In this document: positions 8,444 to 36,790 of the stretch, in pieces | Position numbering within the stretch: position 1 is the first letter of the stretch | How the letters are laid out: each line of letters opens with the position of its first letter | Origin: Acidobacteriota bacterium | GTDB taxonomy: Bacteria > Acidobacteriota > Terriglobia > Bryobacterales > Bryobacteraceae | Assembly: GCA_947470805.1 (NCBI GenBank) | Contig: CANIVU010000090.1 | Location: 1-36,790 of the forward strand | Direction of reading: 5' to 3' | DNA: 36,790 nucleotides | Notes under the pieces: model-generated | What the model was told of the DNA's origin: nothing | Seen by the model: the letters and a program-made list of their open reading frames with translations, nothing else | The model's database searches: none | Program-made: the position numbers and the translations under genes

Positions 8444-9937
8444 GTGCTTCGCGTATTTTTTGCATGCGCTCTCGGCGCAACCCTTCTCTATTCCCAGGCC
8501 AAACCAGCCCAACCGGGCCAGTTGGACGCAAGCCCAGCTCTGTTCACCGTCATGGCCGCCCTCAACGCCGCCGGCTACGACGTCGACGCCCAATCCCCCA
8601 ATAACCATCCCCTCCGCGCCGCCGTCACCCAGCACATCCAGGCCCGCGACCTCGCCACCGTCAAGGAACTGAAGGAATACCTCGAACGCCGCAAGGTCAA
8701 CGGCCGCCCGCTCGACCTAAGCCGGTTCATCTCCTTCGCCCTCTCCGTCGACGGCCCGCCCAACTTTAACTACAAGTTCGCCGCCCACGAAATGCCCCCC
8801 GATCTGGCCCCCCTCGAAGGCTTCGATCGCCTCCTCACCCGTTTCCACAAGGAAGCCGAAATCGATAAGCTCTGGGCCGAAGCCCAGCCCGCCATCGACA
8901 AGCTCCTCGAAGGCTACCAGGATCCGTTCATCAAGACGATCTCCAACGTCAACGCCTACCTCCGCAATCCCACCAGTGGCTACGTCGGCCGGCATTTTCA
9001 AATCTTCGTCGAACTCCTCGGCCCCCCCAATCAGATTCAAACCCGCGAGTACAAAGACGATTACTACATCGTCCTCACCCCCACCCCCGAGCCCCAGCTC
9101 GACTACCTCCGCTACGCCTACATCCGCTACCTCCTCGACCCCCTGTCGTTCAAATACCTCGAACAACTCAACAAAAAGAAACCCCTCATCGACCTCGCCC
9201 AGGCCGCCCCCGCCCTTGAGGAATACTACAAGAACGACTTCCAACTCCTCACCACCGCCTGTCTCGCCAAGGCCATCGAAGCCCGCTTGAACAAAGCCGA
9301 GGGCCCAAAAATGGTGGACCTCGCGCTCAAAGAAGGCTTCATCATGGTCCCCTATTTCTACGAGGCGCTCGCCGTCTACGAGAAGCAGGAAGTCTCCATG
9401 CGGCTTTACTACCCCGACATGATCACCGCCATCGACCTCAAGAAGGAAGATAAGCGCCTCCAAGGGGTCGAGTTCGCTGCCGTCAAAACCACGAAGACCA
9501 TCAAAGTCTCCCGTACCGAACAAAAATCAGAGATCACCGGCGTCTTCAAAACCCTCGAAGATGCCGAAGATCTCTACCGTGCCAAGAAGTACGTCGAAGC
9601 CAAACCTGTCTTTCTGCGTGCCCTCCAGGAAACCCCCGAAAAGCCCCTCCATGCCAAGGCCTATTACGGGCTCGCTCGTATCGCCGCCCTCCAGCGCGAT
9701 CCCGAACTCGCCGTGAAACTATTCGAGAAGGTGCTCGATCTTGAACCTGACGACACGATCCGGTCGTTAAGCAACGTGAATCTCGGCCACTTGTGGGCCG
9801 TCAATAACGAGCAGGACAAGGCTGTAGAGCATTACAAGGCGGCCCTAGCCGTCAAAGGTATTCCCCCGGCCATCAAAAAGGCGGCCGAAAAAGCTCTGCT
9901 AGAGATTTCCCAACCAGAAAAGAAAAAGGAGAAGTAG
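8444..9937 (+). CDS. Exported TPR-repeat protein of unknown function
   Basis: 497 residues starting at GTG 8444. MLRVFFACALGATLLYSQ is a signal peptide. The central region (about 60-350) is helical with no recognised family. The C-terminal 120 residues form about three tetratricopeptide repeats: ADLYRAKKYVEAKPVFLRAL-like, AYYGLARIAALQRDPELAVKLFEKVLDLEP, and NLGHLWAVNNEQDKAVEHYKAAL. The tail is lysine/glutamate rich. It is immediately followed, with no gap, by a second exported TPR-like gene, so the two are an operon and probably co-act as a periplasmic scaffold. Function is not assignable. Confidence 0.8.
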   Translation: MLRVFFACALGATLLYSQAKPAQPGQLDASPALFTVMAALNAAGYDVDAQSPNNHPLRAAVTQHIQARDLATVKELKEYLERRKVNGRPLDLSRFISFALSVDGPPNFNYKFAAHEMPPDLAPLEGFDRLLTRFHKEAEIDKLWAEAQPAIDKLLEGYQDPFIKTISNVNAYLRNPTSGYVGRHFQIFVELLGPPNQIQTREYKDDYYIVLTPTPEPQLDYLRYAYIRYLLDPLSFKYLEQLNKKKPLIDLAQAAPALEEYYKNDFQLLTTACLAKAIEARLNKAEGPKMVDLALKEGFIMVPYFYEALAVYEKQEVSMRLYYPDMITAIDLKKEDKRLQGVEFAAVKTTKTIKVSRTEQKSEITGVFKTLEDAEDLYRAKKYVEAKPVFLRALQETPEKPLHAKAYYGLARIAALQRDPELAVKLFEKVLDLEPDDTIRSLSNVNLGHLWAVNNEQDKAVEHYKAALAVKGIPPAIKKAAEKALLEISQPEKKKEK

Positions 9938-10705
9938 ATGTTGAAGAATTTGTTCCTGCGGCTCGTTACCGGTTCCCTGGCAGCCGCCATGCTGTTTGCC
10001 CAGGCCAAACAGCCCCAGCCCAAGTCGCAGAAAGAAGTCGACGCCCTGAACGCCATGTTCCAGGCCGCCGATAATGACTCGCGCATCAAGGCCGCCAATA
10101 ACCTGTTGCAGAAGTTCGCCGACACCGATTTCAAGGGTCTGGCGCTCTACATGATCACCAACAGCTACAACGAGAAGAACGATGCCACCAACACCATCGT
10201 CTTCGGCGAACGCACCATCGAAGCCGATGGCGCAAGCGCCCTCGCCGCTCATGCCCGCATCATGATCGCCACCTCCTTGGCCAAAACCACCAAGGAATTC
10301 GATTTTGATAAGGAAGAAAAGCTCGGCCGTGCCGATAAGTTGGCCAAGGAAGCCATCGAAGTCATCAAGACGGCCCCCAAGTTCAATCCCGGTCTGACCG
10401 ATGAACAGTGGACCCAGGCCAAGAACGGCTACACCGCCGAAGCCCACGTCGCCATGGGTATGACCGCCACCATTCGCAAGAACTGGAAGGACGCCATCGC
10501 CAGCTACACCACCGCCACCACTACCGACCCGTCCAACGGCGCCACCTTCGTTCGCCTTGGCGCCGCCCAGGTCTCGGCCAATAAGTTCGACGACGCCATC
10601 GCCACCTTCGACAAGGTGCTGGCCCAGCCCGGTCTCGACCCGGCCATTGCCACATACGCCAAGTCCGAAAAAGAGCGCGCGGTGAAGGCCAAGGGAGCGA
10701 AGTAG
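9938..10705 (+). CDS. Exported TPR-like protein, second gene of the pair
   Basis: 255 residues; the ATG at 9938 directly follows the previous TAG, with AAGGAG just upstream inside the preceding gene. The signal peptide MLKNLFLRLVTGSLAAAMLFAQ is followed by a lysine/glutamine linker very like that of the upstream protein. About residues 35-250 contain degenerate TPR-like helix pairs, the clearest being WKDAIASYTTATTTDPSNGATFVRLGAAQ and KFDDAIATFDKVLAQPG. Probably a periplasmic protein-protein interaction module working with its neighbour. No enzyme motif is seen. Confidence 0.78.
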   Translation: MLKNLFLRLVTGSLAAAMLFAQAKQPQPKSQKEVDALNAMFQAADNDSRIKAANNLLQKFADTDFKGLALYMITNSYNEKNDATNTIVFGERTIEADGASALAAHARIMIATSLAKTTKEFDFDKEEKLGRADKLAKEAIEVIKTAPKFNPGLTDEQWTQAKNGYTAEAHVAMGMTATIRKNWKDAIASYTTATTTDPSNGATFVRLGAAQVSANKFDDAIATFDKVLAQPGLDPAIATYAKSEKERAVKAKGAK

Positions 10706-26981: not shown

Positions 26982-27260
26982 ATGCGGTTTTCTGCAATTC
27001 GTTGTTGCTGGGTGGTTTGGGTCGCGGTTAGTTCCTGCGCGTTGTTCGCGCAGGCCGATGTCCCTTTGCCAGAGACGTGCACAGAACAGGACAAGTCGTT
27101 TGTAAACACCTTCCACGCTTTTACGGTTTCCGCGGCACTTCTGGCGGCGTTTCTCTCGTTCTACGCAATCCCGCACTTCTTACGTTTCAGAGCCTGGTGG
27201 CTAACTCGGTCGCCGGAACGTGTCAACGACTTTGAGACAGTCGGCGAAAGAATTTACTGA
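26982..27260 (+). CDS. Small membrane protein, 3' end replaced by an IS
   Basis: 92 codons. It begins MRFSAIRCCWVVWVAVSSCALFAQADVPLP, a signal peptide, and has one transmembrane helix near residues 47-67 (AFTVSAALLAAFLSFYAIPHFL). GGGGG lies about 8 nt upstream of the ATG. The last nine or so codons fall inside the proposed IS3 left end at 27233, so the natural C-terminus has probably been lost. No family recognised. A weak promoter (TTGAAC 26888, TACATA 26911) is possible. Confidence 0.45.
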   Translation: MRFSAIRCCWVVWVAVSSCALFAQADVPLPETCTEQDKSFVNTFHAFTVSAALLAAFLSFYAIPHFLRFRAWWLTRSPERVNDFETVGERIY

Positions 27261-28252
27261 GTATCGTCGACCGGAGTTTGTGGTTTGTTGATCCAGGCCT
27301 GTGCGGGGGCTGGAGGAGATTTGGGCGGACGCTTCACAAATCGTTCGGGGTGAACGAGATAGGCGGCGTTGAGAACGGCCTGTCGTTTTTCGATGACGAG
27401 TGGGGCCTGGCCATGATGGAGAACCGATGGAGTCAGCAGGCTGATGCCGGAATGATGGTGTTCCTCGTTGTACCAGTGGACAAAGTCTGCGGTGAGGGCT
27501 CGGGCATCTTGGATGGAGCCAAAGCGATCCGGGTATTGAGGTCTGTACTTCATCGTTTTGAACTGGCTTTCTGAGTAGGGGTTGTCGTTGGAGACGTGGG
27601 GACGGCTATGGGTTTTGGTGATGCCCAGGTCGGCGAGCAGGAACGCCACCGATTTGGATGTCATCGAAGATCCGCGGTCGGCGTGGATGGTCAGTTCGTT
27701 CTCCTTTATGTTCTGTTTGGTGCACGTATCGGCGAAAAGCTGCTTGGCGAGTTCGGCGCTTTCGCGCGGGGCGATCATCCAGCCGACCACATAGCGGCTG
27801 TAGACATCGAGAATGACGTACAAGTAGAAGTAGGTCCACCTTGCCGGTCCCAAAAGTTTGGTGATATCCCAGCTCCAAAGCTGATTGGGAGCCGAGGCCA
27901 ACAGTTCGGGTTTGGTGTAAGCGGGATGGGCCAGTTGATCGCGGCGCTCCCGCGTTTGGCCGGCCCGGGTGAGCAGACGGTACATGGTGCGCGCCGAGCA
28001 ATGATAATGGCCTTCATCGAGCAAGGTGGCGCAGACTTCCACCGGAGAATGGTTCTGAAAGCGATCACTATAAAGGTGAGCCAGGATGGTCTGGCGTTCC
28101 AGATCCGTCAGCGCACGGGCCGGCCTGGGCCGGGCGGGAGCCGGACCATGAACGGGAGCCAGTTGGCGATAAAACGAAGCGCGGGAAAGGCCGAGGGCGA
28201 TGCAAGCCGGTGCGGTTCCCACTTGCTGGGCGAGGGCACCGGCCGCAGCCAT
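27254..28252 (-). CDS. IS3-family transposase OrfB (DDE integrase core)
   Basis: 332 residues from ATG 28252. The N-terminal HTH_21-like part (FYRQLAP...RALTDLERQTILAHL) is followed by the rve integrase core: D129 in WSWDITKL, D192 in HADRGSSM, E228 in NPYSESQFKTMKY, the DDE triad with normal spacing. The start codon overlaps the orfA stop (TAATG type). The frame also stays open upstream for 76 codons, so an OrfAB fusion by -1 frameshifting is possible. It looks intact. Confidence 0.93.
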   Translation of the reverse strand: MAAAGALAQQVGTAPACIALGLSRASFYRQLAPVHGPAPARPRPARALTDLERQTILAHLYSDRFQNHSPVEVCATLLDEGHYHCSARTMYRLLTRAGQTRERRDQLAHPAYTKPELLASAPNQLWSWDITKLLGPARWTYFYLYVILDVYSRYVVGWMIAPRESAELAKQLFADTCTKQNIKENELTIHADRGSSMTSKSVAFLLADLGITKTHSRPHVSNDNPYSESQFKTMKYRPQYPDRFGSIQDARALTADFVHWYNEEHHHSGISLLTPSVLHHGQAPLVIEKRQAVLNAAYLVHPERFVKRPPKSPPAPAQAWINKPQTPVDDTQ

Positions 28253-28740
28253 TAGAGCAGATCCTCGGGATTGGGCGTGGCCAGTGTCAGACCCAAGAGG
28301 ATAGCCACTTTTTTTTGAACATCGATGATGATTTCGGCTTTGCGTAGTTGATCGGTTAACCGCTCGTTTTGACGGCGGAGTTGTTGGATCTCCTTGGCCG
28401 AGGCATCGGCGTGCGGCTTGGGACCACGGGTTCGTGGAGTCAGCCCTTGCTTGATCCCGGCGTTTCTTTCCTGGCGCCAATGGGTGAGGTGGGAGGAGTA
28501 AAGTCCTTCCCGGCGGAGCAAGGCGCCGATGGCCCCACTCTCAGTAGCTGCGTCAGCTTGCGCCAGAATCTTTTGCTTGTAGGCGGCCGTGAAACTCCGC
28601 CGTTGGGCGCGAGGCCGCACTTCCGGGTTCGGCCGCTTTTCGGCGCCTGGAACGGGAGCCGCTGCACTCCGCGCTGCCTCGCTTCGCTCGCCACCGCTGC
28701 GTTCCGCGGCTCCCGTTCCATTTTTCAATTCGTTCGTCAT
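28252..28740 (-). CDS. IS3-family transposase OrfA (HTH protein)
   Basis: 162 residues from ATG 28740 (a GTG 12 bp upstream is an alternative). A variable, Ala/Arg-rich N-terminus leads to a HTH_Tnp_1 domain, about 52-105 (RRSFTAAYKQKILAQAD, GALLRREGLYSSHLTHWRQER), then a leucine-zipper coiled coil (KEIQQLRRQNERLTDQLRKAEIIID). It binds the IS ends and multimerises with OrfB. Near its end lies an A8 slippery run. Confidence 0.9.
   Translation of the reverse strand: MTNELKNGTGAAERSGGERSEAARSAAAPVPGAEKRPNPEVRPRAQRRSFTAAYKQKILAQADAATESGAIGALLRREGLYSSHLTHWRQERNAGIKQGLTPRTRGPKPHADASAKEIQQLRRQNERLTDQLRKAEIIIDVQKKVAILLGLTLATPNPEDLL
28309..28316 (-). promoter_or_regulatory. A8 slippery site for OrfA-OrfB frameshifting
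   Basis: On the coding (minus) strand the orfA codons CAA AAA AAA G contain eight consecutive A. A -1 slip here moves from ...DVQKK into the upstream-open orfB frame (SGYPLGS...), giving the OrfAB fusion transposase, the standard IS3 mechanism. Confidence 0.75.
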
Positions 28741-28838
28741 TTGCGAGATCACTTTGGTTCACTTTCCCACCCTGCTCTTTAATTAGCCAGGCCGGTAGTG
28801 TCTCAGCTATGTTGGCACGGAGGGCACTTCCGTCAACA

Positions 28839-29423
28839 TTATTTGGCATGTTTGGCCTTCCTCGCTGACGGCAGCGTCCGGGCAAGAAGCCTGCTGACGG
28901 TGGCCGGATGGATCTTGAACAGCCGCGCGGCGTCGGCGGCCGTCTTGTCGCCCTTCGATACCATCTTGCGGATTTCAACCTGCTGTTGAAGCGTCAGCTT
29001 CGGACGGCGTCCGCCGATGCGCCCCTCTTCGCGTGCGGCATCCAATCCGGCTTTGGTCCGCTCTTTGAGCATCGCCCTTTCGAACTCGGCGAATGCCCCG
29101 ACCATCTGCATCATCATCCGGCCTGCCGGTGTCGTCGTGTCGATGGCTTCGGTCAGACTGCGGAAGCCCGACCCGGATTCGCCGAGCCGCTCCATGATCG
29201 TAAGTACATCGCGGAGAGAGCGAGACAGCCGGTCAAGTTTCCAGACTACGAGCACATCACCCTTGCGTAGTTGGTCGAGCAGCCGGTGAAGCTCAGGCCG
29301 ATCCCAACGGCCACCAGAGGCCTTCTCACGATAGATCCGCTCGCACCCAGCTTTCTTGAGCGCCGCCACTTGGACGGCAGTGTCCTGATCGTCGGTCGAG
29401 ACTCTGGCGTAGCCGATCTGCAT
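28839..29423 (-). CDS. Serine recombinase (resolvase/invertase)
   Basis: 194 residues. The catalytic domain starts MQIGYARVSTDDQ with nucleophile Ser9; also KLDRLSRSLRD and the long E helix TPAGRMMMQMVGAFAEFERAM. A C-terminal HTH_7 domain (about 140-190) reads AADAARLFKIHPATVSRLL. It is complete, of the small resolvase/DNA-invertase type. It lies beside the IS3 element with no transposase of Tn3 type nearby, so its parent transposon is incomplete. A candidate promoter with an inverted repeat directly precedes it. Confidence 0.93.
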   Translation of the reverse strand: MQIGYARVSTDDQDTAVQVAALKKAGCERIYREKASGGRWDRPELHRLLDQLRKGDVLVVWKLDRLSRSLRDVLTIMERLGESGSGFRSLTEAIDTTTPAGRMMMQMVGAFAEFERAMLKERTKAGLDAAREEGRIGGRRPKLTLQQQVEIRKMVSKGDKTAADAARLFKIHPATVSRLLARTLPSARKAKHAK

Positions 29424-29429
29424 TGCTCA

Positions 29430-29459
29430 AATGTATCGCCAATCGAATTGGTAACGCAA
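29430..29459 (-). promoter_or_regulatory. Resolvase promoter with inverted repeat in the spacer
   Basis: On the minus strand TTGCGT (29459-29454) and TACATT (29435-29430) are 18 bp apart, and the -10 ends 6 nt before the ATG. The spacer holds CCAAT-3nt-ATTGG (29439-29451). Resolvase genes often overlap their own res site, so this could be both operator and crossover region; unproven. Confidence 0.4.
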
Positions 29460-29558
29460 TACCTTTTTGCAACGCAAGAAGCCCCGCAAATCAACTTCCC
29501 GAGACTTGTTGCGAAACCGGACGATTATGCAACGTCGATTCGTACGGTCGCACCGCTG

Positions 29559-29582
29559 GCACCGCGTTGAGAAACGCGGTGC
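29559..29582. terminator. GC-rich hairpin downstream of the PEP-CTERM gene
   Basis: Perfect 10-bp stem GCACCGCGTT / AACGCGGTGC with a GAGA tetraloop. It follows the PEP-CTERM gene's stop on the minus strand. No U-tract follows on either strand, so it may be a weak or Rho-assisted terminator. Confidence 0.4.
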
Positions 29583-29617
29583 GACAGTTCGAGATCTATG
29601 ACCGGGGGAGGAGCCGC

Positions 29618-30208
29618 TTAAGGACGGCGACGAGCTTTAGCGCCGATCAGGCCGACTCCCGCGATCACCATTATCCAGCTTGCCGGTTCGGGAACCGCTG
29701 AGGACGGGGTAAAGGTGAAATCCTTGTATAGAACGCCGCCACTGTCCGTACTCGATATCAGCAGCCGGGTGACGCCCGAAAAGCCATCGAGGTTGACCAG
29801 ATCTAAGGATAAAAAATTCCCGTCGATTACGATCACATTGGCCGTGCCTAGCAACGTGGCACCGGCAAAAAGCTGCACATCGCCGATATCGGCACCTAGA
29901 GATGTTTCGTTATTACCGACGAAGACGAAGCTGATACCAGAGCTCGGCGCATCAAACAGAACTTCGAGATTGCGCGAACAATCCCCTCCGTTGGCCGAGG
30001 ATGTTGAAGGGCAAAGCCAATTCGATCCCAAAACATTCGCAACAAAGTTGAAGCCGCTGATCGTGGTGAAGGTGGCACCCGGCAGAACGAGCGGGTTCGG
30101 ATTGTTCCCCTCCGATAGCGCCGTAAAATCGATAATTCCCGCCGATACCGCCGCCGAACAGATGAGCAGTACAAGGGGAGCAAGAGACACAGAGATAAAT
30201 GCGCGCAT
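29618..30208 (-). CDS. PEP-CTERM-anchored exported protein
   Basis: 196 residues. A signal peptide (MRAFISVSLAPLVLLICSAAVSA) precedes an all-beta secreted domain (about 24-165). The C-terminus is a canonical PEP-CTERM signal: VPEPASWIMVIAGVGLIGAKARRR, that is VPEP, one hydrophobic helix and an arginine cluster. Such proteins are sorted and cleaved by exosortase, usually for exopolysaccharide-associated surface display. No exosortase gene is in the window. AAGGA precedes the ATG by 6 nt. Function of the beta domain unknown. Confidence 0.9.
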   Translation of the reverse strand: MRAFISVSLAPLVLLICSAAVSAGIIDFTALSEGNNPNPLVLPGATFTTISGFNFVANVLGSNWLCPSTSSANGGDCSRNLEVLFDAPSSGISFVFVGNNETSLGADIGDVQLFAGATLLGTANVIVIDGNFLSLDLVNLDGFSGVTRLLISSTDSGGVLYKDFTFTPSSAVPEPASWIMVIAGVGLIGAKARRRP

Positions 30209-31123
30209 TACAGTCCTTAGCTTTAGCCGGTAGTCGCTACCAGCGGGTAGAGTAACACCAAAAGGTTGTCCAGCGTCAACTATTTCTTTTCTTCTCCTCT
30301 ACCGCATCATCAAAGGCTGGTCCACCCTCGGCGAATTCGGCGTCAACATCCAGTTCGTCAAGGAGGGCGCCATCATCTCGTCATGTCAGCAATCGAGCCG
30401 CTTGGGCCTTACGGATGGCTGTCCATAGTCTTCACAAAAGCCAATCCTGGCTATTTGTACCCAACCCCCCGAAAAGGACCAATTAGCATCGAGACGCCTC
30501 GCCCCCTGTCTGCAAACCATTGATTTATAACGTTTGGCTAAATCGACCTTAGCGTGCGAATCTGATTGGCATCTGCTCTCGTAGAGTTCGCTAACTCTAT
30601 CATTCTATTGACAATGTATGGACAATCATACCTTTTCGGGGGGTTGGGCATTAATGACTTAGCTCAGGTGGTGCCTGCGCCAGAGCTTGGCCGTTTCTCT
30701 GGCGACTTCCCCCAGGGAGTTCGCTTCCTGGTTTTGACCGCGAACTTCCTCATCCCTGGAACTGGATAGACGGCGTGGCATGCCCCAGAATATGCCGAAT
30801 AGTTCGCAGTATGTCTATTCTGCGAACTCTGCTACACCAGCCCCCGGTTTTTCATGCTCTCCTATTTTGCCGTTCCGGCCCGGAACCGGCCAGAAGTGCA
30901 TCGATAGTCGGCCCGAAACGGTGAGGAACCAGCCGACGCCGCCAGGCGCGTGACTGTCGGAGCACCCTTCCGGTCCCCTTCCGACGCTTGCCAATTTGCC
31001 CGCCCGGCCAGGCGGAAATCCCGAGTTGTACCCATCAGTTCCGATGCCTCACTGTGTCTGATAACAGATTTTATCGGACATTGTAAACATTGTCCACACT
31101 CCCCCCCCGAGTCTGTCTGTCAC
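30209..31123. other. Gene-poor, decayed accessory DNA
   Basis: No complete gene convinces me here. Short open frames (for example 30266-30523 and 30566-30769) lack coding-like codon use and known motifs. Contents seen: a coding-like fragment at 30300-30383; a 9-bp inverted repeat AGTTCGCAG / CTGCGAACT (30801-30828, 10-nt loop); and a 9-2-9 inverted repeat with one mismatch at 31076-31095 (GGACATTGT / ACATTGTCC), which may be an operator for the recombinase. Confidence 0.6.
30300..30383 (+). pseudogene. Coding-like gene fragment, about 28 codons
   Basis: Reading from 30300 gives YRIIKGWSTLGEFGVNIQFV and then KEGAIIS with an almost purely C- or G-ending codon choice, like core genes here and unlike the flanking DNA. 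There is no start codon, and the surrounding sequence loses the pattern. I take it as the remnant of a lost gene; the family is not recognised. Confidence 0.35.
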
Positions 31124-31151
31124 TTGACATGCCCCGTCAACAATATATGAT
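31124..31151 (+). promoter_or_regulatory. Strong sigma70-type promoter of the tyrosine recombinase
   Basis: Consensus TTGACA (31124-31129), 16-bp spacer, TATGAT (31146-31151). The expected transcription start is near 31158, giving a leader of about 20 nt without a Shine-Dalgarno sequence. The -10 lies inside the left arm of a 12-bp inverted repeat. Confidence 0.7.
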
Positions 31152-31171
31152 AAAGGACGTTATCATATATT
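31142..31171. promoter_or_regulatory. 12-6-12 perfect inverted repeat: operator or recombination core site
   Basis: The left arm AATATATGATAA (31142-31153) and right arm TTATCATATATT (31160-31171) are perfect complements around the 6-nt centre AGGACG. The geometry and the inner ATAA-6-TTAT edges match Xer/dif-type core sites (11-6-11). It ends 6 nt before the recombinase ATG and covers the -10 box, so binding should also repress the gene. It could alternatively be a plain operator. Confidence 0.65.
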
Positions 31172-31177
31172 AAACCG

Positions 31178-32176
31178 ATGCTTAAGAAACCACAAAGATC
31201 AGGCGGATTGATTCCAAGTTCCAGCCGACAACTCGCCGCCGTCGGCGCTTCCTCCGGCAACGTCCCGGCGATTTTTCTGCGTTCGGAATCGGCGGGAAAA
31301 CGCTTCTGGGAATTTTTCACCGCCAACATCCGGAATCGCAATACGCGCCGCGCGTATTTCGTCGCCGTCTCCCAATTTTCCAAATGGTGTGAAGTTCACA
31401 AGTTCGTGCTCGAAGAGATCGAGCCGATCCATGTTGCCAGCTACATCGAACTCCTCGGTCGCACACTTTCAAAACCAAGTGTCAAGCAACACCTGGCCGC
31501 CATTCGGATGTTGTTCGATTGGCTCGTCACCGGCCAGGTCATTCCCCTCAATCCGGCACACGCGGTTCGCGGCCCAAAGCACAGCGTCAAAAAAGGGAAG
31601 ACTTCCGTTTTGTCCACCGAGGAGATGCGGACGCTACTCGATTCCATCGACGCTAGCACTCTCATCGGCTGTCGCGATCGCGCGCTCATCGCGATGATGG
31701 GCTACACCTTCGCCCGCGTCGGCGCGGTTGTCGCGCTGAAGGTCGAGGACTACTACATCCAGAAGCGCCGCGGATGGATCCAACTCCACGAGAAAGGCGG
31801 CAAGGTCACCGAGCTCCCCTGCCACCACAGTTTGGAAACTTTTTTGGATGAATGGTTGCAGCTCTCCGGTCTTTCGGCCGAACCAGCGGCTCCCCTCTTC
31901 CCTACTCTCCGGCATGGAAAACTCGACGGGCGAGGGCACCTGGCGCAAGCCAATGTCCACATGATGATCCAGCGCCGAGCTCGCGCCGCTGGCATAGCGA
32001 CCAAGATCTCCTGCCACAGCTTCCGTGCGACCGGCATTACGACGTATTTGCAAAACGGTGGGAAACTGGAAATCGCCCAGCAGATGGCCGGGCACGAATC
32101 GGCACGAACCACAGGCCTCTACGACCGGCGCAATGATACCATTGCACTGGATGAGATCGAGCGCATCGCGTACTGA
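31178..32176 (+). CDS. Tyrosine recombinase/integrase, XerC/D-like
   Basis: 332 residues. A SAM-like core-binding domain spans about 45-130 (TRRAYFVAVSQFSKWCEV, PSVKQHLAAIRMLFDWLV). The catalytic domain has all active residues: R180 (GYTFARVGAVVAL), a beta-hairpin lysine at K206/K209 (EKGGKVTELP), H280-x2-R283 (SCHSFRATGI), H306 (AGHESARTTG) and nucleophile Y315 (GLYDRR). It is intact and of a type common on plasmids and genomic islands; it lacks the IntI-specific insertion. It probably acts on sites nearby and mobilises or resolves the region. Confidence 0.93.
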   Translation: MLKKPQRSGGLIPSSSRQLAAVGASSGNVPAIFLRSESAGKRFWEFFTANIRNRNTRRAYFVAVSQFSKWCEVHKFVLEEIEPIHVASYIELLGRTLSKPSVKQHLAAIRMLFDWLVTGQVIPLNPAHAVRGPKHSVKKGKTSVLSTEEMRTLLDSIDASTLIGCRDRALIAMMGYTFARVGAVVALKVEDYYIQKRRGWIQLHEKGGKVTELPCHHSLETFLDEWLQLSGLSAEPAAPLFPTLRHGKLDGRGHLAQANVHMMIQRRARAAGIATKISCHSFRATGITTYLQNGGKLEIAQQMAGHESARTTGLYDRRNDTIALDEIERIAY

Positions 32177-32568
32177 AGACTTGGCAAGCTGGCCCTTCTA
32201 GTGACCACCATTCATGCTCGTAAATACATAAGTTCTGTCACCGCCGCATAAGAAGGCCAGCTTGACCGAGCGGTTAGCGATGCCCGGAGAGCGTGAGTCT
32301 TCTTTTTTGAACCAGCCACCAAAATGAGTTGCATGTTCATTAACTCTCCCTGAAAGTTGAGAAGCCGCGCGTTGATATCGCGTATAGGGGCGCGGGGGCA
32401 GAGCTCACGCATTCAAACGCTCCGGCGCAGCCGTCCATTTAATTCGGCCTTACCTTCGGCTCCGGCCCGCCGATTATTCACGGCGGACTGGACAAGGCCC
32501 TGTCCCAGAGAGGGCGAGACAAAAAGAGGGTGATCTGGGGGCTTCATCTATTCCCTGCGGGAAAACGA
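32177..32568. other. Intergenic region after the recombinase with a long inverted repeat
   Basis: No convincing gene. An inverted repeat AAGCTGGCCCTTCT (32186-32199) / AGAAGGCCAGCTT (32251-32263) has one bulged C and a 51-nt loop. Outside it GAAGACT (32174-32180) can pair with AGTCTTC (32296-32302), which is followed by six T. Together this could be a large folded terminator for the recombinase transcript, or a structured recombination site. Confidence 0.45.
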
Positions 32569-32635
32569 TTGACAGGGATTCCCAGCGTGTTGCACTATGA
32601 AGCACGGTGCATCACCTTAGCTGGATTTCGGCCAC

Positions 32636-32854
32636 ATGCCAACGAACAAAAAGCGAATCTCTATAAATCTAACGGGTGCGGAGTATAGCGAGCTTTCGGC
32701 TTTGGCCGAGCGCCATAAGTTGTCAATGGCTTGGATTGGACACAAGGCCATAGCCGATTTTCTCGAAAAAACCCGAGGCGAAGCCCTTCAGCTTCCGCTT
32801 GCCTTCTCCAAACGCTCGGAGCATCCCCTATGGGCCGGAAACGAACCCCTATAA
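32636..32854 (+). CDS. Small ribbon-helix-helix (Arc/CopG-like) protein
   Basis: 72 residues. KKRISINLTGAEYSELSALAERHKLSMAWIGHKAIADFLEK matches the ribbon-helix-helix pattern: a short beta strand (RISINLT), helix A, a turn, helix B. Such proteins are DNA-binding dimers, often regulating toxin-antitoxin, plasmid or mobile-element genes. TTGACA (32569-32574) with a weak CACTAT (18-bp spacing) lies upstream; no Shine-Dalgarno sequence. It precedes the methyltransferase remnant by 54 bp and may regulate the cargo operon. No toxin partner is adjacent. Confidence 0.6.
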   Translation: MPTNKKRISINLTGAEYSELSALAERHKLSMAWIGHKAIADFLEKTRGEALQLPLAFSKRSEHPLWAGNEPL

Positions 32855-32908
32855 AAACCCTCTTTTCAAAATCAAAGCCCTCGGGCGCAACCAAGGAGAG
32901 AGGCTTTT

Positions 32909-33091
32909 ATGAATTACTCTGAGCCGGCAAACAGATTAGAAAATCCTGTGCCGGTTTCTTCAACGGGGTCATTTACTGGCAAAAGACGGACCGGGGCGAA
33001 ACCCCTGAGCGCCTTATCACTGTTTTCTGGCGGCGGGGGCCTCGACTTGGGATTTTCGGCCGCGGACTTCCGGGTGGGCTGTTCAAGCGAT
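32909..33091 (+). pseudogene. 5' fragment of a C5-cytosine DNA methyltransferase
   Basis: A good Shine-Dalgarno (AAGGAGAG) precedes ATG 32909. After about 35 variable residues comes SALSLFSGGGGLDLGFSAADFRVGC, the SAM-binding motif I of Dcm-type methyltransferases (FSGxGGxxLGF). The catalytic PCQ motif and all later motifs are missing: after about residue 60 the frame runs on to 33244 only as an out-of-frame reading of the downstream membrane-protein gene. The break coincides with the start codon of that next gene. It looks like a deletion or recombination junction that placed the methyltransferase leader in front of the tubulin-like module. Confidence 0.75.
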
Positions 33092-33446
33092 GCGATTGCG
33101 CTTCTTGGTGTTGTACGCCTCCTCGTTCCTGCTTGCTGCAATTGCGCTCCTGTTGCCTTGGCTAGAAGCGTCGTATGGCCTTGGCTTGGGCTTCTCGACG
33201 CTTGGGCTCTTCCAGGTCAGTTATCCGTACCTCGAATGTCATAAAGTTGAGTTTGCGCATCAATCGTTCTTTTGGGGTGATTTTAGCCGGGCTAGCGTTG
33301 GAGCCAGTATTTATCTGGTGGCCGCGCAAGTTTTCACCTATTCGATCGTCTTCTTAATTACCGCTGTCTTAGTCGCAATCGTGCACCAGGTTTTGGTTCA
33401 GAAGCAACTTTCAACGGCGTCCGCGCGCCTCGGAGAGAGAAAATGA
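33090..33446 (+). CDS. Small membrane protein, first gene of the tubulin-like module
   Basis: 118 residues. MRLRFLVLYASSFLLAAIALLLPWLEA is one hydrophobic helix; SIYLVAAQVFTYSIVFLITAVLVAIV forms one or two more near the C-terminus, with a polar loop between and a basic cytoplasmic tail (HQVLVQKQLSTASARLGERK). No family recognised. Its ATG lies at the methyltransferase junction and lacks its own Shine-Dalgarno; translation may depend on the upstream methyltransferase start. The stop overlaps the tubulin-like gene start (ATGA), so the two are coupled. A role as membrane anchor for the GTPase is inference from context only. Confidence 0.6.
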   Translation: MRLRFLVLYASSFLLAAIALLLPWLEASYGLGLGFSTLGLFQVSYPYLECHKVEFAHQSFFWGDFSRASVGASIYLVAAQVFTYSIVFLITAVLVAIVHQVLVQKQLSTASARLGERK

Positions 33447-33853
33447 ATCTTATTTTTGCTGTGGGCGGAACAGGTCAGGAAATACTGCATCACATCAATA
33501 CCCTTTATCTTAGCGGGTCCATTCGGGATTCATTTTCTGCCTACGTAGTGGATACCGATCGGATGTACGGCAGTTTGTCCTATCTGTCTTCGTTTTACAG
33601 ACATTCAGATGCCGTGCTTCGCGATCTTTACTTTCGAGGTCACTCTATTGCTCAACCTCCGCAAATCACACTGATGCCTGTAGGTGGATTTGGGGCTGGA
33701 ACTATCAACGAACAGCTTTCTGGAAGAACCCTTCCAGCCGTTCATAGTTATGAAAATACGCTAAACGCATTTTTCTCCAGAGGGGATTTGGCACAGCAAA
33801 CGCGGGAGGGGCTGTATGCCCGCCCGGCTTTCGAGTGTTTTGGTGGCCGATAG
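33443..33853 (+). CDS. Tubulin/FtsZ-like GTPase, N-terminal part before a frameshift
   Basis: 136 codons. MNLIFAVGGTGQEILHHINT has the nucleotide-binding T1 loop (GGTGQ, residues 8-12) after the first strand; SAYVVDTDR is the T2/T3-like strand with an acidic pair. The signature T4 loop is missing here but occurs in the next frame immediately downstream. Removing one T from the TTTT run at about 33831-33834 joins the frames as ...RPAFECLVADSVLQRLNEP. I read this as one gene (33443-34775, about 443 residues) carrying a +1 disruption: a real mutation, a sequencing error, or less likely programmed shifting. Confidence 0.65.
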   Translation: MNLIFAVGGTGQEILHHINTLYLSGSIRDSFSAYVVDTDRMYGSLSYLSSFYRHSDAVLRDLYFRGHSIAQPPQITLMPVGGFGAGTINEQLSGRTLPAVHSYENTLNAFFSRGDLAQQTREGLYARPAFECFGGR

Positions 33854-34775
33854 CGTTCTGCAGCGACTGAATGAGCCGATGCTTGCCAGTGCGAAAAGGG
33901 TTTTTGTTGTGGGTTCTATGATCGGCGGTACGGGGGGCGGTCTGATCGTACCTGTTTTGGCGAAACTTCAAGCCTTATGCGGGCCGGAGACAAGCCTTTT
34001 CTGTATCGCCTTAGGTGAATACTTTAAGCCAGATGAGGGTGTCCTTGATAACGCAGTCACACGGTTTCGATCCAATTGGCTGATGACACGTTCTCTGCTC
34101 GAAAAATCGGTACCGAAGCTTTGGAAGTATTCATTTATTGAACAGCCAAAGTTAGAAAAGAAGGTGCCGTTCCCCGAGACGGACGCTCCATTTCCAACGG
34201 AACAAAATCCGTTTTGGCGAGCCATTGTCACGTATAAGCACCTAGCGGAAGATACCACTATGGATCGCGGACACGATTTCGCGTCCAATGCCGTCGATTG
34301 GGAAACAGCCAGATCTGCACTTTCTTACGCCGCGGCTACTCAATGTATCGATAATGCGCGCGCTCAGATTTCGATCCTGCAGGAGTACAGCCCCCTGGTT
34401 TCCTACTGCCAAGAACCATTTCCTGCAGCCTGTTGGGGTAAATTTTCGGAATTCGCGTCGGCAATCATTGCCCTGCATAAAAAGGGACGTAAAGTTGATG
34501 CCAATCCGAGGGAGTTCTTGAATTCGGTACAACGGCAGATTAATTCCGGGTTACGGCTGTCAGTTGAACACCCATCCAATTACACCCTAGGGTTGTTTCC
34601 AGGGCGTGCCGTTGCTGCGTTGACGCCCACCTCTTTCCGTTCGTTAGCGTGGCCTGAGTTAGGGCCAGATCCACTCGCGGCATCCTTTGGCAGTAAAGAC
34701 GACTCAGCTATTTCTGTTGCAGCGGCTACGAGTTATTGCGCCGCACGATTGTCAAGTTCAGCGGGAGTACTCTGA
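33816..34775 (+). CDS. Tubulin/FtsZ-like GTPase, C-terminal part after the frameshift
   Basis: 319 codons from ATG 33816. KRVFVVGSMIGGTGGGLIVPVLAKL (here residues 28-52) contains the tubulin-superfamily T4 signature GGTGxG, followed by a Rossmann strand (TSLFCIALGEYF). The rest is a helical extension with no recognised domain. A near-ideal GGAGG (33805-33809) lies 6 nt before this ATG, so independent translation is possible, but without the preceding T1 loop the GTPase would be incomplete. Base composition is near 50% GC in sampled lines, below the window's core genes, indicating transfer. It ends 5 bp before the zinc-ribbon gene. Confidence 0.65.
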   Translation: MPARLSSVLVADSVLQRLNEPMLASAKRVFVVGSMIGGTGGGLIVPVLAKLQALCGPETSLFCIALGEYFKPDEGVLDNAVTRFRSNWLMTRSLLEKSVPKLWKYSFIEQPKLEKKVPFPETDAPFPTEQNPFWRAIVTYKHLAEDTTMDRGHDFASNAVDWETARSALSYAAATQCIDNARAQISILQEYSPLVSYCQEPFPAACWGKFSEFASAIIALHKKGRKVDANPREFLNSVQRQINSGLRLSVEHPSNYTLGLFPGRAVAALTPTSFRSLAWPELGPDPLAASFGSKDDSAISVAAATSYCAARLSSSAGVL

Positions 34776-34780
34776 TACTT

Positions 34781-35619
34781 ATGGAGAACTGGAACGGATT
34801 ATCGGTCGAGCCGGCCTCGATTCCTCATCTTTTGCATTGGGACTTGGCATACCTTTGGGCTCTTGAGCAGGCGCCAGACCAATTGTCGCCTGCATGGAAT
34901 CTGAGAGTTGGTGCCTGGAAGCGGCTTTTGGAACTCTTCATTGCCGGGGAGTTGGAGATTGTGGACGGTGTTGTTCCAACCAATCTTAGTGAGCTACTTC
35001 GTGGGTACGGAATCACGTCCGTTAAAGAGTTACATTACAAAGATCGCCGAGGCAAAGTTCTCGGCATTCTGAGTCCACTTACCATTGTTCGCCCACTTCC
35101 GGATGTTTCAGGGGAGGAATGTAAAGCGATCCCGGATCCGGAGTCCGGTAAGAAAGATGCTGTTATTCATCTGTTGAAATTGTTGGAACCAGCATTGGAG
35201 GATGAAGTGTCTTCGGACTCTCCTGTCCCTGCCGCACTTCACCGAATCGTCCATTCGCACCGGATACAGCTCGAAGAACGACTCGCTGTGGCCGATCTTG
35301 CCGCAGGTACAGTTCGAGCCGCCGTGAACCCCCTAGACACAGTGGAGCGAGTCTCTCTTCTTCGCGCCTGCCCTGCAATTCCGGGTACCGGGCCTGCGCG
35401 CAGTTTTATATTGAAAGTTGGAATTTTCCACAAGTTTGAGAACCGATATGTTCCAACTTGCACCCAGTGTAATGCGAGAACCGCATTGTTGTCTGGCAGG
35501 GGGCAGACCGTCATCCCTTGTAGCTCAGACACAATCGTATTGCATTGCTCCGCGTGCGGTGCATTGAATTCCGTAAGACTTGAAAAGTTGTTCTTGTCGT
35601 TCCCAACGCCGGACCGACC
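34781..35619 (+). pseudogene. Zinc-ribbon protein of the tubulin-like module, cut by IS630
   Basis: About 279 codons remain of the original gene. Residues 1-180 are a mixed helical region with no recognised family (LLHWDLAYLWALEQAPDQLSP, WKRLLELFIAGELEIVDG). Residues 227-259 form a treble-clef or ribbon-like zinc site: CTQC ... CSACG (C227, C230, C256, C259), with one extra cysteine at 247. The reading frame enters the IS at 35620 and ends at 35749 in transposon sequence, so the C-terminus is lost. GGGAG lies 13 nt before the ATG. With the GTPase gene 5 bp upstream it is clearly part of the same operon. Confidence 0.65.
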
Positions 35620-35634
35620 TAGTGTAGTGCTTCA
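35620..35634 (+). repeat. IS630 terminal inverted repeat, transposase 3' side
   Basis: TAGTGTAGTGCTTCA, a perfect complement of 36775-36789. The first TA is the duplicated target. Confidence 0.93.
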
Positions 35635-36787
35635 CACAGACCGAAGATTAAGAGCGGCGGATTTCGCGCGAATGACCTTAGCCAGAATGTCGTTGGCCTT
35701 GGCCGTCCAGATGAATGGCTTGGGATTGGCGTTGTGCTGGTCGACATAGTCGTCGAGGGCATCAATAAGTTCGAGAACGCTGTGGAAGACGCCGCGCCGC
35801 AATCGGTTTTCCGTTAGGTCGCGAAAGAATCGCTCCACCATGTTCAGCCAAGAAGAGCTCGTTGGCGTGTAGTGAACATGAAAGCGGGGGTGCTTCTTGA
35901 GCCACCGGCCGACCTTTGGATGCTTGTGTGCCGAGTAATTGTCAGCAATGAGATAGAGTTCTTTGCCTGGCGGCGTGGCGGCGTCGATGAGTCTGAGGAA
36001 CTTAATCCATTCCTGGTGTCGATGGCGCTGCTGGCAGAGACTGATCACCTTGCCGCTGGCCGAGTTGAGTGCCGCAAACAGAGTCGTCGTGCCATGTCGT
36101 TTGTAATCGTGGGTCATCGTGCCGGCTCGGCCTGGTTTCATTGGCAGTCCCGGTTGTGAACGGTCGAGCGCCTGCACCTGGCTCTTCTCGTCCACGGACA
36201 GAACAATCGCCTGCTCCGGCGGGGCGAGGTAAAGACCGACGATTGCCTCAAGCTTATCGCTGAAATTGGGATCGTTGCTGAGCTTGAATGACTCAATTCT
36301 GTGTGGTTTGAGGCCATGAGCGCGCCAGATTCGCAAGACGCTGGAATCGCTGACACCAGCGGCGGCAGCCATGCTCCGAGTACTCCAGTGAGTCGCATTG
36401 CCGGGCTTGTCTTGAGTCGTTCGACGGACGATTTCCGATACTGCCTCTTTGCTGATCGCCGGAGTTCGGCCGGGCCGGGGCGCGTCCTTCTCCAAACCAG
36501 CGAGGCCCTTGAGGAGAAACCGCTTCCGCCATCGAGCTGCCTTGGCCAACGTGATGGATAGCGCGGTGGCGATATCGATATCGCGTTTCCCTTCGGCAGC
36601 GAACAGGACGATTCTCGATCTCTCGGCTAGCCGCACCGGTGTTTTACGTCCATTGGCCCAAGCCTGCAGCGTAGTTCTTTGTTCGGCAGTCAACTCAACT
36701 TTGGGGGCAACGCGCATCGGCAACCGGCTCCTCCAGTATACGGATGCCGCCGGTCCGATATTCGTTCCTACTTCTGAAGCACTACAC
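35622..36787 (-). mobile_element. IS630-family insertion sequence, complete
   Basis: 1166 bp flanked on both sides by TA (35620-35621 and 36788-36789), the target that IS630/Tc1-mariner elements duplicate. Including the TA, both ends show a perfect 15-bp inverted repeat (TAGTGTAGTGCTTCA at 35620-35634; its complement at 36775-36789). One intact transposase. It has interrupted the zinc-ribbon gene; only one base of the far flank is in the window. Confidence 0.93.
35632..36717 (-). CDS. IS630-family transposase
   Basis: 361 residues from ATG 36717 (an in-frame TTG two codons earlier is an alternative). The N-terminal helix-turn-helix domain (LAERSRIVLFAAEGKRDIDIATAL, then GVSDSSVLRIWRAHGLKPHR) binds the ends. 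The DDE catalytic triad is D176 (LSVDEKSQ), D259 (LIADNYSAH) and E295 (SWLNMVERFF), with typical Tc1/mariner-like spacing. No interruption: it appears active. The stop codon lies inside the left terminal inverted repeat. Confidence 0.95.
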   Translation of the reverse strand: MRVAPKVELTAEQRTTLQAWANGRKTPVRLAERSRIVLFAAEGKRDIDIATALSITLAKAARWRKRFLLKGLAGLEKDAPRPGRTPAISKEAVSEIVRRTTQDKPGNATHWSTRSMAAAAGVSDSSVLRIWRAHGLKPHRIESFKLSNDPNFSDKLEAIVGLYLAPPEQAIVLSVDEKSQVQALDRSQPGLPMKPGRAGTMTHDYKRHGTTTLFAALNSASGKVISLCQQRHRHQEWIKFLRLIDAATPPGKELYLIADNYSAHKHPKVGRWLKKHPRFHVHYTPTSSSWLNMVERFFRDLTENRLRRGVFHSVLELIDALDDYVDQHNANPKPFIWTAKANDILAKVIRAKSAALNLRSV

Positions 36788-36789
36788 TA
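36775..36789 (-). repeat. IS630 terminal inverted repeat, transposase 5' side
   Basis: TGAAGCACTACACTA, the mate of 35620-35634. The final TA is the duplicated target. Confidence 0.93.
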
Positions 36790-36790
36790 G

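Follow-up and report, generated by a model that had tools for sequence, protein, structure and literature searches.

Broken first half of a conserved bacterial operon of six genes, in which a tubulin-like GTPase is paired with an actin/Hsp70-type ATPase

The window, a 36,790-nucleotide stretch of Acidobacteriota DNA, carries three same-strand genes for a membrane protein (gene 1), a tubulin-like GTPase (gene 2) and a zinc-ribbon protein (gene 3). Together they are what is left here of the first half of a six-gene operon that is conserved in other bacteria. Three breaks mark this copy: gene 1 is split, gene 2 changes frame and gene 3, which runs from 34781 onward, is cut by an IS630 element. 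The coordinates of the open reading frames (ORFs) agree with an earlier note on this DNA, which had genes 1 and 2 overlapping by 4 bp and a 5-bp gap ahead of gene 3, and its report of a base composition below that of the core genes also stands (G+C of 0.511 for the trio versus 0.611 in window positions 1-31000). The features are given below with E values against the named databases or, for genes 1 to 3, against profiles built with the window left out (seven relatives each for genes 1 and 3; four relatives for gene 2, profile A2).

26982-27225 (right edge approximate), plus strand: 5' half of gene 1; model positions 13-93, E 1.1e-7
27226-33089 (edges approximate): mobile-DNA mosaic between the halves of gene 1, from Pfam and PADLOC matches
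27254-28480 and 28252-28752, minus strand: transposase pair; Pfam rve 3.5e-21, HTH_Tnp_1 3.1e-5
28839-29423, minus strand: serine resolvase; Pfam Resolvase 2.2e-49
29618-30208, minus strand: PEP-CTERM protein; Pfam PEP-CTERM 1.8e-7
31178-32176, plus strand: tyrosine recombinase; Pfam Phage_integrase 1.5e-19
32909 to about 33090, plus strand: 5' piece of a C5 DNA methyltransferase gene; PADLOC MTase_II 3.6e-6, Pfam just 0.11
33090-33446, plus strand: 3' half of gene 1; model positions 84-181, E 6.9e-4
33443-33853, plus strand: first piece of gene 2, with a T1-like loop (GGTGQ); A2 model positions 3-127, E 1.6e-27
33816-34775, plus strand: second piece of gene 2, in another frame, with a T4-like loop (GGTGGG); A2 model positions 125-435, E 7.1e-39
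34781-35618, plus strand: first third of gene 3 alone, the N-terminal domain with its zinc-ribbon site; model positions 7-288, E 1.4e-54
35619-36790, minus strand: IS630 element interrupting gene 3, with identical 16-bp ends; NCBIfam transpos_IS630 1.4e-79
35632-36723, minus strand: IS630 transposase, within that element

The ORF at 33090-33446 has two hydrophobic segments, in keeping with the membrane protein that had been proposed, but it is only the 3' half of gene 1; the 5' half lies across about 5.9 kb of mobile DNA, at which a target-site duplication was sought and not found. Similarly, the CxxC...CxxC site described at the C-terminus of the third product is present, but is terminal only because IS630 cuts the gene: in the complete gene 3 of one relative (L010) it falls near residues 221-252 of 1018. 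The right end of IS630 is also the end of the contig, and the rest of gene 3, including the ATPase domain of the ASKHA (Hsp70/actin/MreB) family found in relatives, was sought in the assembly and not found. With this actin/Hsp70-like domain, a von Willebrand factor A-type (vWA) protein and a MotAB/ZorAB-like pair all missing from the window, the trio is neither complete nor a trio. What had been taken for a self-contained three-gene module is a decayed and incomplete fragment that cannot make the six-protein machine.

Gene 2 is divided into two ORFs by a frame change near 33,815-33,853. Because all eight window-type relatives have a single frame, a programmed frame shift is not favoured, and the change may be a sequencing or assembly error. 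The matches of genes 2 and 3 to window-free profiles are more than chance, and the loops, present in the middle product as first described, together with profile similarity, support placing the gene 2 product in the tubulin superfamily. Both loops are conserved in seven of the eight window-type relatives, the T4-like loop being altered in the eighth (L114, FGGAGTG). In profile searches of the PDB, tubulin or FtsZ accounted for 18 of 20 rows at E<=1 for gene 2 (best E 0.042) and for 26 of 28 with a sister profile (best E 0.0015), all weak matches lying mostly around T4. No Rossmann or ThiF family appeared in the Pfam or PDB searches, and a T7 catalytic loop was not identified in the alignments. 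The Pfam Tubulin_2 (PF13809) profile, a check suggested at the outset, does match the window protein (E 4.6e-4, 20 bits) but under its cut-off of 27 bits; scores elsewhere were 21.9 (L010), 21.4 (L022), 14.6 (L018) and none (L011). Weak PF13809 matches in three other genomes (G160, G186 and G198) were rejected, two loci being ordinary FtsZ plus FtsA by eye (L064, L065) and the third gene (L063) being absent from the ORF list. A further match (L007 in G117, E 1.4e-4) was dismissed as chance, as its frame of 96 aa is interrupted by a stop and lies on the strand opposite a long ORF.

On contigs that extend far enough, the operon comprises six genes: a membrane protein; a tubulin-like GTPase of about 440 aa; gene 3, of about 1000 aa, joining the zinc-ribbon domain to a C-terminal Hsp70/actin-type ATPase domain; a vWA protein with a signal sequence, an intact MIDAS motif and, in some, a lipobox; a MotA/ZorA-like membrane protein that ends in a long coiled-coil tail; and a MotB/ZorB-like protein with an OmpA-type domain and one transmembrane helix bearing an invariant Asp. 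The same order recurs in L010, L017, L114 and L022, the last gene of L022 being cut by the contig end. Genes 4-6 of L010, L017 and L022 gave leave-one-out scores of 9.2e-14 or better, and L114, which is in no profile, matched those for the tubulin (2.0e-18), ASKHA (1.1e-68), vWA (2.7e-53), ZorA (7.6e-13) and ZorB (2.7e-37) components. The MIDAS residues are invariant in four vWA proteins and the transmembrane Asp in three sequences.

Gene 3 of the complete copies can be assigned to the ASKHA family from its motifs and profile matches. Phosphate-1 (DFGTTN) and phosphate-2 (DxGGGT) motifs occur in L008, L010, L017 (as DLGGGS for phosphate-2) and L022, with near forms of both in L114, and gene 3 matches Hsp70 at E 9e-7. 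In L009 gene 3 stops after 416 aa, ahead of the ASKHA domain, so this copy may also be broken or split. A second set of loci, type B as opposed to the window's type A, encodes a different ASKHA partner that matches MreB (E 1.3e-9); a pattern search found the phosphate-1 motif in 9 of 13 of these proteins.

The tubulin-like gene precedes, or is fused to, gene 3 in 8/8 type-A relatives and an ASKHA gene in 18/18 type-B loci (about 17 of the latter being independent, because the same element seems to be present twice, as L116 and L117), and the two form one ORF in L017, L045 and L048. Across 296 genomes of one phylum, that of G539, full-length type-B ASKHA matches score high only in the seven genomes with an unfused type-B tubulin. 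The divergence of the two proteins is also correlated, with a Mantel r of 0.89 over eight type-A loci and 0.96 over ten type-B loci; branches within the type-A tree are weakly supported, and no claim here rests on trees. From adjacency, fusions and correlated divergence we infer that proteins 2 and 3 work together as a unit, the best-supported step of our interpretation. The motor is not universal, as no MotAB-like pair can be recognised in most of type B. A vWA-like protein of type B (L018) was not recognised by the type-A profile, and a DxSxS motif lies near the expected place in just 3 of 10 type-B vWA counterparts.

The nearest counterparts known are FtsZl1-vWA-OmpA operons, Zorya and GTPase-tubulin/HSP70 conflict systems, and the operon belongs to none of them. 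FtsZl1 (Tubulin_2) operons share the T1- and T4-like loops and the vWA and OmpA-type partners (genes 4 and 6 in L010, L017, L022 and L114), and in hhalign comparisons with three FtsZl1 proteins the family scored 94.4% with profile A3, which combines type A and L018, and 96.7% with type B, adding to the case for a tubulin-like GTPase. Their ORFs, however, are 897-1098 aa long compared with about 425-444 aa here, a length from which we judge that the long coiled coil and helical C-terminal domain of FtsZl1 are absent, and none of the three FtsZl1 loci inspected has the ASKHA gene that follows the tubulin-like gene here. Although FtsZl1 is the nearest relative found, membership was rejected on length and on the Pfam cut-off.

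Zorya has a MotB-like protein with a transmembrane Asp and an OmpA-type domain, a MotA-like protein with a long cytosolic coiled coil and, as is likely here, envelope anchoring. Our ZorB-like protein matches PADLOC ZorB (9.4e-12 in L010, 2.7e-9 in L017) and also MotS/MotB, although the ZorB matches fall largely in the general OmpA domain. The ZorA-like protein is a weak candidate for a MotA homologue: Pfam MotA_ExbB gave 0.024 (L010), 0.21 (L017) and no match (L022), its N-terminal part matched PADLOC ZorA in L010 (0.0087) and not in L017 or L022, and a PDB match was not obtained. The full-length L010 protein reached 6.7e-6 against PADLOC ZorA, but over much coiled coil. Tubulin-like, ASKHA and vWA proteins stand here in place of ZorC-ZorG, none of which PADLOC found among 12 L010 proteins and two neighbours each in L017 and L114; with ZorA also weak, membership of Zorya was rejected.

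The passages on GAP1-N2 GTPase conflict systems in Kaur and others 2020 describe GTPases joined with tubulin homologues, an HSP70 family protein and vWA partners (PMC7159879), which are shared themes. The TRAFAC GTPase of those systems was not recognised here: Pfam matches for genes 1-6 of L010, the gene after them and six L018 proteins included no GTPase domain family, and a Dynamin_M match (0.038) falls within the coiled coil that L010 gene 5 encodes. Section 29 of that article presents its tubulin and HSP70 themes as non-overlapping, and MotA and ExbB are mentioned 0 times in its main text. The intact six-gene operon looks new.

The genes occur together in several phyla, which answers the question of whether the trio recurs in unrelated genomes and excludes homologues that never co-occur. 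Nearby recombinases and defence genes, also asked about, were found in part. Recombinases adjoin the window copy, and L010 lies beside PDC-S41 (3.6e-281), ZacA (6.2e-140) and ZacB (3.7e-181), but this is the one locus with strong defence neighbours, the others tested giving nothing or unspecific matches. Beside type-B copies are a TerD gene (L046; PDB TerD 1.3e-50) and caspase and CHAT genes (L018). These neighbours are what favours a general stress-response complex in which a vWA protein and the NTPase pair sense stress from metals or at the envelope, much as Ter-type vWA systems do, phages not being the main trigger. We consider this improbable, as TerD is shown at one locus, similar-looking L118 proteins have no PDB match (a TerD-like name was rejected for them) and no Ter genes were recognised among the type-A neighbours tested.

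Plasmid or element maintenance, also raised in the earlier note, fared worse. Both tubulin-like and actin-like families include partition proteins, and a TubZ/ParM-like role in partitioning a plasmid or island would suit the type-B copies on two cyanobacterial plasmids, to which its support is limited: the L040 tubulin matched six plasmid records, three of which were inspected, the third being a 1.77 Mb Prevotella "plasmid" that is probably a chromosome. However, partition has no use for vWA, MotAB-like or OmpA components, and type-A queries (P0002, the L022 tubulin and L010 genes 3 and 5) found no match in the plasmid set, nor did type-B L018 gene 3 or the L045 fused protein. TubZ-like partition thus found little support and is highly improbable. 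In virus searches, type-A P0002 and the type-B L040 tubulin had no phage match and profile A2 none among viral contigs; type-B profile A12 placed five loci on contigs classed as viral.

A third possibility is that the operon is a relative of FtsZl1-vWA-OmpA that shapes the membrane or cell wall and has no defence role. Its parts are envelope proteins, FtsZl1 proteins are the nearest to it in sequence among those found, and where Makarova and Koonin 2010 treat FtsZl1, a role in membrane remodelling with vWA and OmpA partners is proposed (PMC2875224). Such upkeep nonetheless seems unlikely. The distribution is patchy, with the type-A gene-3 domain in 4/396 genomes of the phylum surveyed, and type-B copies on plasmids and viral-classed contigs, the decay of the window copy amid mobile genes and the defence neighbours of L010 fit conflict better.

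Tentatively, and at a little under an even chance, we favour the view that the complete operon encodes an envelope-anchored, ion-driven sensor of Zorya-like layout that triggers tubulin/actin-like assembly, probably in conflict with phages. By analogy with the Zorya motor, as described in PMC11890865, proteins 5 and 6 would be an ion-fed stator anchored on peptidoglycan, like ZorAB. Together with the exported vWA protein, it could sense envelope disturbance such as a phage injecting DNA, and the signal would travel down the coiled-coil tail to cytosolic proteins 2 and 3. Fuelled by GTP and ATP, these might then assemble at the membrane, where protein 1 holds them, and so block the invader or shut the cell down. 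Ion flow, polymerisation and a defence role are each inferred for the complete copies, and defence is the weakest step; a nuclease or other clear effector was not found in the operon. It is possible, if more doubtful, that the family represents a new class of prokaryotic conflict machine in which a dedicated, sometimes fused tubulin-like/actin-like NTPase pair answers to a peptidoglycan-anchored ion motor and an exported vWA sensor. It would be a defence complex built on two cytoskeletons, with a wreck of it in this window and a motor-poor sister type in other phyla.

Because the two NTPase genes are neighbours in every locus inspected, and a single ORF in three, joint assembly of a tubulin-like and an actin/Hsp70-like protein is directly testable. 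The window itself is an example of how such systems die, and of how a wreck can mimic a neat three-gene module. In the complete copies, a family related to the FtsZl1-type tubulins, for which multi-gene membrane machines were predicted in 2010, takes the form of a compact operon. If the motor link is true, force sensing of the Zorya type and cytoskeletal assembly would be brought together in one system.

The trio occupies about 33090-35619 on the + strand of the window, a single whole contig of 36,790 bases in an 8.7-Mb genome. The earlier note gave its open reading frames, the overlap of genes 1 and 2 and the gap before gene 3 accurately, as it did the lower base composition (G+C 0.511 in the trio against 0.611 in window 1-31000). 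On the question that note raised, the three genes do co-occur elsewhere, but they are not the self-contained module it envisaged: this copy is broken three times, once in each of genes 1, 2 and 3, and six genes are present where the contigs of relatives reach far enough. The features involved in the damage are as follows.

~26,982-27,225: the lost 5' half of gene 1, ~5.9 kb upstream (E 1.1e-7, profile of seven relatives without the window)
27226-33089: mosaic of mobile genes splitting gene 1 (transposase pair, serine resolvase, PEP-CTERM protein, tyrosine recombinase and the first part, at the 5' side, of a gene for a C5 methyltransferase)
35619-36790: IS630 element with identical 16-bp ends (terminal repeats)

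The first product is a membrane protein, as had been claimed, although not a complete one: aligned to its relatives, which have 181-233 aa and, in the five checked, 4 or 5 hydrophobic peaks, the window ORF starts mid-protein. This 3' half matches the same seven-relative profile at E 6.9e-4. The methyltransferase piece ends where the gene-1 remnant begins, and no target-site duplication was found around the DNA separating the halves. In gene 2 the reading frame shifts somewhere between about 33,815 and 33,853; scored with a profile of four relatives that excludes the window, its two ORFs are adjacent halves of one protein (model positions 3-127, E 1.6e-27, and 125-435, E 7.1e-39). Gene 3 is interrupted at 35,619 by the IS630 element, at which the contig ends. 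At least five other contigs of the genome (C54, C116, C168, C192 and C195; 40 of 51 candidates scored) end in 148-149 bases of IS630, a pattern consistent with three genomic copies. Three right-hand IS630 flanks of 1.5 kb each held no continuation of gene 3, and profile searches of the assembly returned nothing for the vWA gene and, for gene 3, no more than the copy in the window plus two matches that are short and weak (0.0026 and 0.0125).

Relatives of the window type (type A) came from 151 close genomes, in which six matched (the genome itself, four true relatives and one discarded), from 396 genomes of the phylum, with four matches each for the tubulin profile and the gene-3 domain, and from a scan of genome contigs, in which only L022 of six loci was new. 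They total eight (L008, L009, L010, L011, L017, L019, L022 and L114), and the neighbourhood analysis suggested earlier finds the tubulin-like and gene-3 N-terminal domains together in all of them. The gene-1 profile matches seven; in L114 the position is held by a putative membrane protein, judged by appearance, outside that profile. Gene 3 extends to an ASKHA (actin/Hsp70-type ATPase) domain in five. The contigs of L011 and L019 stop before it, and gene 3 of L009 (18655-19905), with a stop after 416 aa, ahead of the domain and 95 bases from the contig end, may be a second damaged or split copy. A vWA gene comes next in all five loci with the ASKHA domain (in L008 the contig stops within it), followed by ZorA-like and ZorB-like genes in all four contigs reaching further (L010, L017, L022 and L114, with ZorB cut in L022). 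In L017 a single 1478-aa ORF contains the tubulin-like and gene-3 parts.

Most of these loci contributed to the profiles that score them. L114, which lies outside every profile, matches five (tubulin 2.0e-18, ASKHA 1.1e-68, vWA 2.7e-53, ZorA 7.6e-13, ZorB 2.7e-37), and leave-one-out scores for genes 4-6 of L010, L017 and L022 are all 9.2e-14 or better. The tubulin profile A2 missed the L114 genome (G398), which was recovered through its gene 3; among the 396 phylum genomes, a tubulin-like gene adjoins the gene-3 domain in all four carriers, G398 included. Although the L114 operon is complete in other respects, the T4-like loop of its tubulin-like protein (8643-9950) is changed to FGGAGTG, and GTP binding by this protein may differ.

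Profile comparisons support the prediction that the middle product is tubulin-like. Of the PDB rows at E<=1, 18/20 and 26/28 are tubulin or FtsZ, with best E-values of 0.042 and 0.0015 and with the similarity lying chiefly near the T4 loop, and hhalign places the tubulin-like profiles with three FtsZl1 (Tubulin_2) proteins at 94.4% and 96.7%; type B, the sister type, aligns with ordinary FtsZ at 17%. One further locus (L061, 598-6798) has two adjoining genes for long proteins of FtsZl1 type, of 897 and 1081 aa, each scoring above the Pfam Tubulin_2 cut-off. Type-A gene 3 matches Hsp70 at 9e-7 and the type-B ASKHA partner matches MreB at 1.3e-9. MIDAS residues are invariant in four vWA proteins; the vWA protein has no PDB match at E<=1. 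The ZorB-like protein matches MotS (5.6e-9), MotB, PomB and Pal, and ZorB in PADLOC (9.4e-12), and the ZorA-like protein is a candidate ZorA/MotA homologue with weak matches. MIDAS, T1, T4, T7, phosphate-1 and -2 and lipobox motifs were assigned, and signal sequences called, by eye or pattern.

Type B includes an acidobacterial member, L018, found by A2 at E 6.4e-7; an alignment between the profiles of the two types spans 233 columns (hhalign 98.1%). In 296 genomes of the phylum of G539, a type-A carrier, a profile of type A plus L018 (A3) found nine distant proteins besides L022's genome. A type-B query matches six plasmid records (three examined: Gloeothece, Picosynechococcus and Prevotella), and profile A12 matches five loci in viral contigs. 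Close to the type-B copies L118 (4941-5897) and L119 (53-1732), in contigs classed as viral, are genes that by inspection resemble a relaxase and a terminase. An ASKHA-type gene follows, or is fused to, the tubulin-like gene in all 18 type-B loci examined, truncated by the contig end in L043. The fusions, L045 (7097-12142, 1681 aa) and L048 (548-5395, 1615 aa), diverge more than the remaining copies, and the type-A profile recognizes them (1.3e-13 and 3.1e-11). A15, built from ten of the 18 ASKHA-type proteins, also recognizes proteins outside it (L043 1.4e-61, L115 2.9e-176, L116 1.1e-109, L117 5.9e-110, L118 9.8e-142, L119 3.8e-32).

Wherever the locus extends far enough, two genes come before the pair, one for a small membrane protein and one for a protein with an export signal, the latter on the opposite strand in L057. 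Of ten such exported proteins, three carry DxSxS about where it would be expected and nine show a loose lipobox pattern; that of L018 does not match a vWA profile built without it, so the exported protein is at most a candidate homologue of type-A gene 4. A ZorB-like gene lies downstream in L041 (5.4e-5; PADLOC ZorB 7.4e-8) and, judged from weak matches or inspection alone, in L045, L048, L116 and L117. Elsewhere among the type-B loci scanned there was no match at E 0.01.

For type-B ASKHA proteins at full length, scores of 207-1257 bits occur in seven of the 296 genomes, the same seven that carry the unfused type-B tubulin, and the next-best row is G539's own type-A protein at 46 bits. As these seven contributed to the profiles, the real test lies in the other genomes, in none of which either gene occurs without its partner. 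All 296 genomes pass E 0.001 through a short motif common to ordinary actin-like proteins, and the two fused copies went unseen because just two candidates per genome were scored. Divergence of the two partners is correlated (Mantel r 0.89, p 0.0004, 8 loci; r 0.96, p 0.0002, 10 loci), as shared descent alone would also yield.

The expectation of recombinase or defence neighbours holds in part. Recombinases and the methyltransferase piece lie beside the window copy, and PADLOC names PDC-S41, HNH, ZacA and ZacB 3' of the complete operon in L010 (11463-20000), a stretch that also has a metallo-beta-lactamase-fold gene; one PADLOC paper makes no reference to Zac. Caspase and CHAT/TPR genes lie beside the type-B operon of L018 (12507-19595), which itself shows no MotAB-like genes, and a TerD gene adjoins L046, with a second by eye. 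For the remaining neighbours tested there was either no match or an unspecific one to an ATPase, a protease, a TPR protein or a regulator.

A literature search, in a collection with few subscription papers and lacking the PMC2875224 supplement, found no paper pairing a tubulin-like protein with Zorya, MotA, vWA or actin-/Hsp70-like partners in this way; among the matches listed for ZorA with FtsZ, titles and abstract openings had no such operon, and tubulin, vWA and anti-phage together turned up jumbo phage work alone. Systems that combine GTPases with tubulins and HSP70 were already named in PMC7159879, so we treat the operon as a variant of something already known in kind. What the loci establish is its anatomy; its proposed working is drawn from Zorya, in which, according to PMC11890865, defence requires ZorB peptidoglycan binding, the ZorA tail and ion flow. 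By this analogy, proteins 5 and 6 would be what couples the NTPase pair in the cytosol to disturbances of the envelope.
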